Shown here piece by piece: positions 12,462-21,086 of a DNA stretch of 64,000 bases; the first letter of the stretch is position 1, and every line of letters begins with the position of its first letter. The notes beneath the pieces are model-generated. The model was not told the DNA's origin, made no database searches, and was given only the letters and a program-made list of their open reading frames with translations. The stretch is from a virus. Made by a program: the position numbers and the translations under genes. The DNA lies in the IMG/VR virus record IMGVR_UViG_3300042402_002641, positions 62,001 through 126,000 of that record; one strand, given 5' to 3'.

Positions 12462-13547
12462 ATGGCAAAAGCACAAGATATTTCCGTCCGTCAAGTTGGC
12501 CCTAAGGGTGCCAAGAAGGCGATCCGACACGCAATCAAGATGCGTCGTCCAACATTCCTCTGGGGTCCTCCAGGCATTGGCAAATCAGATCTCGTCAAGC
12601 AGATCGGTGATGACGCTGGTCGTGAGGTCATTGACGTTCGCCTGGCTCTTTGGGAACCCACAGACATCAAGGGCATCCCTTATTACAATGCAGAGCAGGG
12701 CAAGATGGTTTGGGCTCCTCCTGCAGAACTGCCCACTGATGCAGACTCTAAGGCAATCATCTTCCTAGATGAATTGAACTCTGCACCTCCAGCAGTCCAG
12801 GCCGCGGCCTATCAGTTGATCCTGAACCGCCGTGTTGGCACATACCATTTGCCCAAGGGCGTGGATGTTGTGGCCGCAGGTAACCGCGAAGGTGACCGTG
12901 GTGTCACATACCGTATGCCTGCTCCGTTGGCTAACCGTTTCATCCACTTGGAAATGAAAGTGGACTTTGATGACTTCCAAGACTGGGCTACTTTGCACAA
13001 GGTGCATCCAGAGGTTGTGGGTTATGTGGGTTTTGCCAAGCAGGACTTGTATGACTTTGATCCTAAGAGTTCCTCTAAGGCGTTTGCAACTCCACGCTCG
13101 TGGGTGTTCGTTAGCGATCTACTGTCAGATGATGACTGCGACAACGACACATTGACAGCACTGATCGCAGGTGCTATTGGTGACGGCTTGGCTTCTAAGT
13201 TCATGGCTCACCGCAAGATCGCAGGCAAACTGCCCAAGGCTGGTGACATCCTCGACGGCAAGGTCAAGGACCTGCAGATCAAGGAAGTGTCAGCGATGTA
13301 TTCTTTGACTGTTAGCCTGTGCTATGAGCTCAAGGACCGTGCAGAGAAGAAGGCTAAGAACTGGGACGATATGGCAGACTGCTTCTTCCGCTACATGATG
13401 GATAACTTCCCAACTGAGTTGGTTGTGATGGGTGCCAAGACCGCGCTCACCAACTATGACTTGCCCTTGGACGCTACTAAGATGAAATCCTTCGATGAAT
13501 TCCACAAGCGTTTTGGTAAGTATGTTTTGAGTGCCATGGAGAATTAA
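12462..13547 (+). CDS. MoxR-type AAA+ ATPase
   Basis: 361 aa. Walker A GPPGIGKS (35-42), Walker B IIFLDE (99-104), and the MoxR-type stretch with AAGNREGDRGVTYRMPAPLANRF. MoxR ATPases usually work as chaperones with a VWA-domain partner encoded next door, and here the next gene is exactly that. The pair probably remodels or activates a protein complex with ATP and a metal-bound partner. It ends in a hairpin terminator and has its own promoter, so it can be expressed apart from its partner. Confidence 0.9.
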   Translation: MAKAQDISVRQVGPKGAKKAIRHAIKMRRPTFLWGPPGIGKSDLVKQIGDDAGREVIDVRLALWEPTDIKGIPYYNAEQGKMVWAPPAELPTDADSKAIIFLDELNSAPPAVQAAAYQLILNRRVGTYHLPKGVDVVAAGNREGDRGVTYRMPAPLANRFIHLEMKVDFDDFQDWATLHKVHPEVVGYVGFAKQDLYDFDPKSSSKAFATPRSWVFVSDLLSDDDCDNDTLTALIAGAIGDGLASKFMAHRKIAGKLPKAGDILDGKVKDLQIKEVSAMYSLTVSLCYELKDRAEKKAKNWDDMADCFFRYMMDNFPTELVVMGAKTALTNYDLPLDATKMKSFDEFHKRFGKYVLSAMEN

Positions 13548-13563
13548 GACCTCGCCCATGGCC

Positions 13564-13602
13564 GGGCTACGGGCTCCTCAGGGTTCGTAGCCCACCTTTT
13601 TT
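13564..13602 (+). terminator. Rho-independent terminator
   Basis: GGGCTACG (13564-13571) pairs with CGTAGCCC (13586-13593), followed by ACC and TTTTTT. The 14-nt loop includes CTCCT, complementary to the core AGGAG of the leaders in this region. Confidence 0.85.
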
Positions 13603-13604
13603 GG

Positions 13605-13633
13605 TTGACAGGTGTGTAAATAGATGCTATAAT
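13605..13633 (+). promoter_or_regulatory. sigma70 promoter
   Basis: TTGACA 13605-13610, 17 nt, TATAAT 13628-13633; leader AAGGAGAGCGACTA before the ATG. Confidence 0.9.
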
Positions 13634-13658
13634 ATACACATACTAAGGAGAGCGACTA

Positions 13659-14867
13659 ATGGACCCAATCATAGAGAAACTAACAACTGCTAGAGTAGGA
13701 CTGTTGCTCAAAGCACCGTTCTTCGGCAACATGGCAACTCGTATGAAGTTGATTGATGCTTCAGACTGGTGCCCTACCGCCGCAACCAACGGTCGTGACT
13801 TCATGTATAACAAGAAGTTCGTAGAGAAACTTTCTGTTAAGAAACTAGAGTTCCTGTTCGCACATGAGATCTGTCATGCCGTATTTGATCACTTTGGTCG
13901 TTTAGGTTCGCGTATTCCACAACTGGCGAACATCGCACAGGACTACGCTGTGAACCAGATCCTGGTAGATGAACGCATTGGTGAGAAGATCACTGAGGTA
14001 AAAATCTGCTATGACGCCAAGTATCGTGGATTGGCCTGGGAAGAGATCTATGACGAGCTCTTCGAAAAAGCAGAGAAGATCCCTATGGAACAACTGCTGG
14101 CACAACTAGGTGATCTCCTAGACGAGCACATCAAAGAAGAAGAAGGTGCTGGCTCGGGTGGTGGTGACAAGACCAAAGACGGCAAGGGCAAGCCCTCGTT
14201 GACTAAAGAAGAAGCCGAACAGATCCGCGATGAGATCAAGAACGCCATGATCCAAAGTGCCGCGGCCGCTGGTGCTGGTAAGGTGCCCGCAGGTATCCAA
14301 CGCTTGATCAAGAACTGGACTGAGCCTAAGATGGACTGGCGCCAGTTGGTGCAACAAGAGATCCAAAGCATTGTTCGCAATGACTACTCCTTTCAGCGTG
14401 TGAATCGCAAGAGTATGCACAGTGGTGCTATCTTGCCAGGCATGAAAGAAGCAACTACCATTGACGTGGCAATCTCAATCGATATGTCAGGTTCTATCGG
14501 TGATGAAGATGCAACTGCATTCCTCAGCGAGATCAAGGGCATCATGGACCAGTACGAGGACTTCAAGATCAACCTGTGGTGCTTTGACACCGATATCTAC
14601 AACTGGAAACAGATCACACACGACGAAGCTCATGAACTGGTAGAATATGAGCCACAGGGCGGCGGTGGCACAGACTTCGAAGTCAACTGGACCTTCATGG
14701 AAGAGAATGGTATCCAGCCCAAGAAGTTCATCATGTTCACAGACGGCTACCCATGTGGCGGTTGGGGCAACGAGGACTACTGCGACACGATCTTTATCGT
14801 CAAAGGCAATGAGAAAGCAGAAGCACCCTTTGGGCAGACTGTGATCTATGAAAAAGAGGCGGCGTGA
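13659..14867 (+). CDS. VWA-domain protein with HExxH motif (MoxR partner)
   Basis: 402 aa. The N-terminal domain has HEICH at 69-73, a zinc metallopeptidase-like motif. An acidic Gly-rich linker follows (about 155-182). The C-terminal VWA domain has the MIDAS motif D275-x-S277-x-S279 and a later GGGTDF with the MIDAS threonine. This matches the putative metallopeptidase/VWA proteins paired with MoxR ATPases. It may be the effector whose activity the ATPase controls. Protease activity is possible but not shown. Confidence 0.88.
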   Translation: MDPIIEKLTTARVGLLLKAPFFGNMATRMKLIDASDWCPTAATNGRDFMYNKKFVEKLSVKKLEFLFAHEICHAVFDHFGRLGSRIPQLANIAQDYAVNQILVDERIGEKITEVKICYDAKYRGLAWEEIYDELFEKAEKIPMEQLLAQLGDLLDEHIKEEEGAGSGGGDKTKDGKGKPSLTKEEAEQIRDEIKNAMIQSAAAAGAGKVPAGIQRLIKNWTEPKMDWRQLVQQEIQSIVRNDYSFQRVNRKSMHSGAILPGMKEATTIDVAISIDMSGSIGDEDATAFLSEIKGIMDQYEDFKINLWCFDTDIYNWKQITHDEAHELVEYEPQGGGGTDFEVNWTFMEENGIQPKKFIMFTDGYPCGGWGNEDYCDTIFIVKGNEKAEAPFGQTVIYEKEAA

Positions 14868-20147: not shown

Positions 20148-20384
20148 ATGACACAAACACAAATAGACAACACCCTACAGTGGACCGGAGCAGCGGCCAT
20201 CATCGCCATGCACGTACTCAACGCAGCAGGCCCCGAGGCTTATCCCTGGAACATCATCGCAGCTTTCATCGGAACTGTTGCATTCCTTTCATGGACCATC
20301 CGTGTGAGAAACCTGCCGCAGTTCACGGTAAACGTGGTAGCATTAGCCATAGGCTTTGTAGGGTTATATCGAGCGTTTGGTTGA
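20148..20384 (+). CDS. small membrane protein, probably leaderless
   Basis: 78 aa with two to three transmembrane segments (AAAIIAMHVLNAAG, WNIIAAFIGTVAFLSWTI, VNVVALAIGFVGLY). The ATG lies six bases after the -10 box and there is no Shine-Dalgarno. Function unknown. Confidence 0.7.
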   Translation: MTQTQIDNTLQWTGAAAIIAMHVLNAAGPEAYPWNIIAAFIGTVAFLSWTIRVRNLPQFTVNVVALAIGFVGLYRAFG

Positions 20385-20409
20385 CACATTGGCGTTTTGG
20401 TGTTACAAT
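20381..20409 (+). promoter_or_regulatory. sigma70 promoter of the noncoding element
   Basis: TTGACA 20381-20386, 17 nt, TACAAT 20404-20409. No gene begins within the next 290 bases. Confidence 0.85.
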
Positions 20410-20415
20410 AGATAC

Positions 20416-20630
20416 ATAGACAGTTAGGAAAGAGCAAAAGGTTACCTACACCGTTAGGTACTTAGAGGGTTAGGACAGTGGCGACGGTCACGCTCAATCT
20501 AGGTACATGAAACAGGGCAGTGATGCTCGGAGAAGCGGCGGATCTTGTAGGCAGTAATGACGGTACAAGCCCTTGTGGAGACGGTCCCTGGGGTAGACTA
20601 CATGTTCCTTTGCTTTTTCCCAACTGTCTA
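20416..20630 (+). ncRNA. structured noncoding RNA candidate (~215 nt)
   Basis: The ends pair: 20418-20425 (AGACAGTT) with 20622-20629 (AACTGTCT), continued by 20427-20441 with 20607-20620, about 22 pairs with one A/C mismatch, one bulge and one G-U. Inside are ACCTA/TAGGT (20444-20459), GTGGC-GACG-GTCAC (about 20478-20491), CTTGTA/TACAAG (about 20544-20569) and GGA-GACGG-TCC; GACGGT occurs in three of these. It has its own promoter and ends before the next one. No known RNA family was recognised. Confidence 0.65.
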
Positions 20631-20639
20631 ACAGCCAGG

Positions 20640-20668
20640 TTGACAACTAGCCAAATTAGTTGTATAAT
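20640..20668 (+). promoter_or_regulatory. sigma70 promoter
   Basis: TTGACA 20640-20645, 17 nt, TATAAT 20663-20668. Confidence 0.92.
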
Positions 20669-20702
20669 AGACACATACAAACAAACATTAGGAGCGAACC
20701 CA

Positions 20703-21086
20703 ATGACTAAAGTAAATTATGACCGTTTTGCCTCGTTTGACATTAACGAGTGCTGTGACCACTTTGATAGCGAGAAACAGAGCAACTGGAAGAAGATCGG
20801 CAAGTTCATCGTAGCAGATGGACAAGAGTACGCCCACATTATGGAAACAGAGTTCGACTTTGAAGACGTGGGTAGTGGCGAGTACGAGGCCTTTGACGCA
20901 GGTGTTAAGTATGCCCTTACTAAGATGAACATTGCCTTTGAGGCAGCAGGTTTGGACCTACAGATCTGCGAGGTAGACCTTGTAGAGAGCATGGGCTTTA
21001 TGATGGTACGTTGCGATGACGAGCCCGAGGACTTTGTCAAGCGTGTGATGAAGAAGCCCGTGATGATGGTAGACAGCTGGATTTGA
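20703..21086 (+). CDS. conserved phage protein of unknown function
   Basis: 127 aa, acidic (MTKVNYDRFASFDINECCDHF...). Leader TAGGAGCGAACCCA decides this start; the frame is open further upstream into the noncoding RNA, but that part reads as noncoding. Function unknown. Confidence 0.7.
   Translation: MTKVNYDRFASFDINECCDHFDSEKQSNWKKIGKFIVADGQEYAHIMETEFDFEDVGSGEYEAFDAGVKYALTKMNIAFEAAGLDLQICEVDLVESMGFMMVRCDDEPEDFVKRVMKKPVMMVDSWI

Follow-up and report, generated by a model that had tools for sequence, protein, structure and literature searches.

Background

Besides tRNAs, the tRNA cluster of phage T4 encodes species 1 and 2 (RNA C and D), which are small and stable and have no known function. 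GOLLD and ROOL are structured phage RNAs often found near tRNA islands; GOLLD is in many cases longer than 800 nt, the ROOL that has been studied measures 659 nt, and both form nanocages (PMC12286853). GOLLD has reportedly been pulled down with ribosomes, yet it may instead be a container (PMC12286853). In Escherichia coli, the leader and trailer of the 23S rRNA form a helix of 27 bp that is processed by RNase III, and the rrn leaders carry the series boxB-boxA-boxC (PMC10250234).

Here, I describe a locus in the window, i.e. the whole stretch of 64,000 nucleotides analysed, which corresponds to positions 62,001-126,000 of IMGVR_UViG_3300042402_002641, a 280-kb virus record (G000). Positions 20417-20630 (+ strand) are almost certainly the gene for a conserved structured noncoding RNA, as judged from the comparison of related sequences.

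Results

The RNA element is about 210 nt long (~215 nt) and is preceded by a sigma70-type promoter, TTGACA-17-TACAAT, at 20381-20409 (+), with its -35 hexamer at 20381-20386, a spacer of 17 nt, its -10 hexamer TACAAT at 20404-20409 and a predicted start at about 20416. The original prediction, made from the letters of this stretch alone, had placed here such a promoter, a structured noncoding RNA of some 215 nt, and gene-free space up to 20703, and all three are borne out: the first plausible gene 3' of the promoter begins with the ATG at 20703. An ORF at 20520-21086 was discarded as a mere 5' extension of that gene, whose homologs align from the ATG at 20703. The second promoter expected right after the RNA is present as well (TTGACA-17-TATAAT, 20640-20668, +); it serves the conserved gene at 20703 and sets the outer limit of the RNA gene. 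A protein-coding reading of the RNA was likewise rejected, for the closed ORFs of its members are short (median 22 aa) and member lengths are spread over all three residues modulo 3.

About 25 near-consensus TTGACA-17-TATAAT promoters lie between 3553 and 22453 (+), many before small orphan genes, and promoter-pattern matches in the window number 34 versus 10 expected. In the same region (12462-14867, +), a gene for a MoxR-like AAA ATPase adjoins one for a DUF2201 putative metallopeptidase/VWA-like protein.

Through the gene at 20703, 80 related IMG/VR loci were reached, and blastn with the RNA region found relatives of the RNA at many different genomic positions in them. Twelve relatives were aligned with MAFFT and folded with RNAalifold (50 pairs, 31 of them with compensated double changes), and a covariance model, R1, matched 29 of 81 sources. 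A degenerate pattern combining the conserved 5' joint with GUAAUG matched at least 119 viral stretches or contigs in IMG/VR, and among the pattern matches listed all 119 score at least 29 bits with R1 on the strand of the pattern. Among 84,980 cellular genomes, the same pattern occurred at four places only, and the covariance model accepted none of them; a cellular origin was rejected, these sole matches being non-members. A second pattern, taken from the 3' half, added members not chosen by the 5' motif, and the distant ones among them have a wholly changed P2 (helices are numbered P1 to P6, see below), such as GCAGA/UCUGC in locus L247. At least 114 distinct sequences were collected in total from IMG/VR, and most full-length members measure ~200-260 nt.

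Antisense hits of R1 (16-32 bits) proved to be shadows of the near-palindromic P1 and were gone with a refined model, R2, which was positive in 18 of 26 tested records with one copy each and no antisense shadows. Two tandem copies of the RNA were observed in locus L275 (79-298 and 305-529, - strand), followed by a tRNA-Asp. The carriers include uncultured phages of up to ~380 kb, and the T4-like terminase of the source record shares ~54% identity with its counterpart in Pseudomonas phage PA5oct. When INPHARED was searched for cultured carriers, blastn with divergent members returned nothing real, and both R1 and R2 were negative in the nearest cultured terminase relatives (PA5oct, Phosso, CBB and GAP32). 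The 54 blastn hits in Synechococcus phages were set aside, for they span the neighbouring promoter only and do not cover the RNA.

The two computable checks proposed in the original prediction, an Rfam search and a comparative alignment for compensatory changes, were carried out and neither refuted it, the latter revealing very strong covariation. The folding energy of the single sequence (20410-20645; -78.0 kcal/mol versus -66.6 +/- 4.6 for dinucleotide shuffles, z = -2.46) lends modest support when taken alone; it is the comparative evidence that is decisive for the predicted fold. In an alignment of 91 distinct rows fitted to the covariance model, 92.5% of the cells are paired versus 37-46% in slid controls, double changes occur in 42 of the 50 pairs, and the covariation score reaches 0.609 versus 0.174 for shuffled alignments and 0.05-0.09 for slid structures. 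Because this alignment had been fitted to a model, a second, structure-blind one was made from 91 held-out members absent from the training set, and its strongest covarying columns fall on the same antidiagonals, corresponding to P1-P6. Comparison of the sequences shows, in other words, an RNA fold on which selection acts, with a long helix closing its ends, in many large phages.

In this fold (all positions on the + strand), P1 encloses two arms. One is P2-P3, from which P4 and P5 branch, and the other is P6; the result is two nested three-way junctions, supported by covariation. P1 joins 20417-20441 with 20607-20630, the latter being the predicted 3' end region of the RNA; its pairs covary and number 23, close to the 22 or so of the predicted closing helix, while among members its length has a median of 24 bp (interquartile range 22-27) and falls well below 20 bp in some. 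The 5' strand of P1 is followed by J1/2, an unpaired and near-invariant UUA (20442-20444, 98-100%), and by the 5' strands of P2 (20445-20450) and P3 (20451-20455), whose 3' strands lie at 20546-20551 and 20537-20541, respectively. Covariation in these two helices is plain to see (CCUAC/GUAGG, CCUAG/CUAGG, CCCAC/GUGGG; CCGUU/GGCGG, CCAGU/GCUGG etc.).

An invariant AG (20456-20457) separates P3 from the P4 hairpin (20458-20506), which is capped by a GNCG tetraloop (20483-20486, here GACG) with a covarying closing pair; J4/5 (20507-20514), with its invariant A20507 and GAA (20509-20511), leads to the P5 hairpin (20515-20528), which ends in a GNRA tetraloop (here GUGA). The joint from P2 to P6, GUAAUG (20554-20559), is invariant (100%). 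The P6 arm (20559-20606) comprises P6a (20559-20565/20599-20606) and P6b (20569-20579/20585-20594), closed by the loop GACGG (20580-20584), of which GACG (20580-20583) is near-invariant and unpaired. The expectation that the interior would consist of hairpins was right in kind and too high in number, three terminal hairpins (P4, P5 and P6) being found where at least four had been counted. Similarly, the motif GACGGT does occur three times, as foreseen, with only two copies, those of P4 and P6, in hairpin loops. The third (20559-20564) is at the base of P6, where the first G alone is conserved; its equivalents in homologs read GACCGT, GATGAA or GTGG, and among the members the P6 base comes in three or more sequence versions. 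No pseudoknot was detected by covariation, the additional pairs being extensions of P1 and P6 only.

Rfam 15 recognised two tRNAs and nothing else in the whole window; between 20380 and 20700, at E values up to 10, it gave a single chance hit (REN-SRE, 10.5 bits versus a cut-off of 41), and in 19 homologous loci only tRNA and tmRNA, located elsewhere in those loci. No Rfam family thus reached its gathering threshold at the RNA, be it 6S RNA, RNase P, tmRNA, SRP RNA, a group I or II intron or a riboswitch. That the RNA would be neither 6S RNA, RNase P nor tmRNA, as initially supposed, agrees with these searches and with the covarying structure: where 6S RNA folds into one long hairpin, interrupted by a large bulge at its centre, this RNA has two nested three-way junctions, and neither ARAGORN nor Rfam found at the locus the tRNA-like domain and tag reading frame of a tmRNA. 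The covariance models of GOLLD and ROOL had no match in the window or in the 19 homologous loci (Rfam), and the RNA is shorter than the roughly 600-800 nt or more of that class; the setting of the class, i.e. phages or prophages near tRNA islands, is shared by the family and not by the copy in the window. The literature searched, subscription papers and most preprints aside, contains no description of this RNA, which a candidate catalogue may list. Its sequence, its size and its fold make it a new RNA family, one that belongs among the structured RNAs associated with phage tRNA islands.

The genomic context was counted in 108 distinct members with enough upstream sequence. A sigma70-like promoter of their own is present in 35 of them, with a -10 that most often ends 9 nt before the start of the model, so that transcription is predicted to begin at the foot of P1; most of these own-promoter members (about a third of the total, the window's included) have no adjacent tRNA. 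A boxA-like TTCTTTAA[AC] is found upstream of 25/108, in most of them between -40 and -48, the background frequency being 0.026 per kb; the window copy has a promoter and no boxA. In this set of members a promoter is followed by a boxB-like hairpin, for example CTAGTTAGGAAATTAACTAG, and then by a boxA-like TGTTCTTTAAAAA, which resembles the boxA of the E. coli rrn operons, TGCTCTTTAACA. Furthermore, the RNA abuts the 3' end of a tRNA in 16/108, a tRNA starts at most 15 nt downstream of it in 34/108, and a tRNA lies within 300 nt in 60/108; the window copy is not among the latter, its nearest tRNA being 12.8 kb away. Since three independent arrangements (promoter, leader with boxB-like hairpin and boxA-like motif, and tRNA abutment) converge on the foot of P1, the RNA is taken to end there.

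Leaders resembling the rRNA type (promoter-boxB-boxA) were also noticed as such, before phage tRNA arrays and ~150 nt upstream of the RNA, sometimes in tandem, in L112, L157, L121, L130, L275 and others; in some units that begin with tRNA-Glu, boxA stands ahead of the tRNA. A second conserved structured element, of ~92 nt (GCAAGGCGATCCTC...GGATACGAAGCGAGTTTAGAGACTCGGCCTAAGC), gave 63 hits, has no Rfam match and displays apparent compensatory changes (CGAGT/ACTCG, AGAGT/ACTCT). It is located directly upstream of the RNA in L116, L214, L172 and L103, sometimes under one shared promoter, and stands by itself in L005 (7735), L006 (10485) and L061 (2048).

Among these phages, a permuted tmRNA (two-piece type) is encoded in 14 of 17 records (102-144 bits versus a cut-off of 47), in this phage at G000:26664-26993 (-), outside the window, and also in L112, L121 and L156. 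The ribosomal protein bS21 is encoded in 9/17, here at G000:15466-15624 (-), again outside the window. The link of the RNA to both is contextual, because one record (G003) has tmRNA and bS21 and no detected RNA, and several records that do carry the RNA yielded no bS21. Neither SmpB nor a phage-encoded RNase III was found in the 17 records, nor were reverse transcriptase (PF00078, 0/17, control genomes positive) and Ro/TROVE (PF05731, 0/17, control positive), all of these absences being weak, for the records are perhaps incomplete; host enzymes would be needed in place of the first two.

Discussion

The explanation favoured here, which as a whole falls just short of probable, is that of a phage RNA expressed and trimmed like rRNA and tRNA and working with translation. 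Its first part, that the RNA is made as rRNA and tRNA are made, is probable by analogy. The product would be a stable, trans-acting, compactly folded RNA of ~210 nt. In the window, a strong promoter of its own would start transcription at the foot of P1. In relatives rich in tRNAs, the RNA either follows a promoter-boxB-boxA leader, by which the host Nus antitermination complex would be brought in, or sits directly between tRNAs. P1, forming co-transcriptionally, would act as a leader-trailer helix of the pre-rRNA type, and trimming would be left to host RNase III, or to tRNA-end processing where tRNAs abut.

The second part, a role in translation, is a tentative proposal suggested by the company of the RNA and its mode of expression. 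In the infected cell, the mature RNA might bind the translation machinery, either the ribosome itself or one of its proteins, perhaps in concert with tmRNA, tRNAs and bS21 of the phage. The putative binding surface would be the GUAAUG/UUA junction, which is invariant, together with the GACG loops of P4 and P6. That it is a virus-encoded ribosome-associated RNA, i.e. a small rRNA-like component of a large phage class, is a doubtful further step. A complementarity of GGUUACC to 16S rRNA near the decoding site was considered and dropped, for some members have GGUUGGC or GGUUAAC, and the CC of the motif is paired inside P2.

The main rival is an RNA-only structural particle, that is, an oligomer self-assembling as GOLLD, ROOL and OLE do and serving as scaffold or container; GOLLD, in a similar setting, is perhaps a container. 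The GNRA and GNCG loops and the invariant joints are typical of tertiary packing, and the tRNA-island setting is shared with the nanocage-forming GOLLD and ROOL (PMC12286853). Against it, the RNA is three to four times smaller than these, and neither mutually complementary conserved loops nor extra covarying loop-loop pairs were seen, so that this reading is unlikely.

Less likely still is a regulatory RNA directed at the host, which would act as a CsrB-like protein sponge or inhibit some enzyme or defence of the host. The GACG motif repeated in two hairpin loops would suit a sponge or inhibitor of this kind, as would a sigma70-type promoter of its own among many similar ones. CsrA sites, however, read ANGGA, and the loops here are GNCG and GACGG; moreover, the fold is kept through large sequence change, unlike that of sponges, and an rRNA-type leader would be unusual for a regulator.

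The RNA often comes first behind the boxA leader, or immediately between tRNA-Glu and tRNA-Asp, which may bring to mind a cis-acting element of tRNA arrays, for processing or as a spacer, aiding the folding, antitermination or maturation of a polycistronic tRNA precursor. This is improbable, for about a third of the members have their own promoter, most of them with no tRNA adjacent, and the interior is conserved far beyond the needs of a processing stem. Finally, one may think of an RNA partner of an enzyme (retron msr-msd, omega or guide RNA, Y RNA for Ro, packaging pRNA), since a long helix joining both ends also occurs in retrons, Y RNAs and pRNA. None of the analyses pointed that way, and this is very improbable, as no reverse transcriptase or TROVE/Ro was found in the 17 records, the neighbouring genes vary and Rfam is negative.

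If the RNA is such a ribosome-associated component, it would be transcribed behind an antitermination leader of the rRNA type and would serve, together with phage tmRNA, tRNAs and bS21, to remodel host translation. The arrangements described are the mark of a stable RNA comparable to rRNA and tRNA, and they suggest that it may be an unrecognised phage tool, perhaps one controlling translation; the takeover of translation is the place to look.

Comparison with known systems

Some members of the family resemble an rrn operon in their succession of promoter, boxB-like hairpin, boxA-like motif, an RNA within a terminal helix of 22-27 bp and a tRNA thereafter. The family differs in that the enclosed RNA is not rRNA, in having been found only in phage contigs and in the lack of boxA at the window copy; it recalls pre-rRNA by what seems an analogy of expression, not homology. 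With the permuted tmRNA (RF04321) it shares being a stable structured RNA of these phages, and some arrays contain both; in this phage, however, it sits at another locus than the tmRNA, and it has neither tRNA-like domain nor tag reading frame. The T4 RNAs (species 1 and 2, RNA C and D), likened by description only, are also non-tRNA stable RNAs among phage tRNAs, and are shorter. From GOLLD and ROOL it is set apart by its ~210 nt here, its unrelated sequence and the lack of an Rfam match, and yet, like them, it is a structured phage RNA, often near tRNA islands, with a complex multi-branch fold; being short (~210 nt), usually single-copy and strongly covarying, it offers a compact model for the role of such RNAs.
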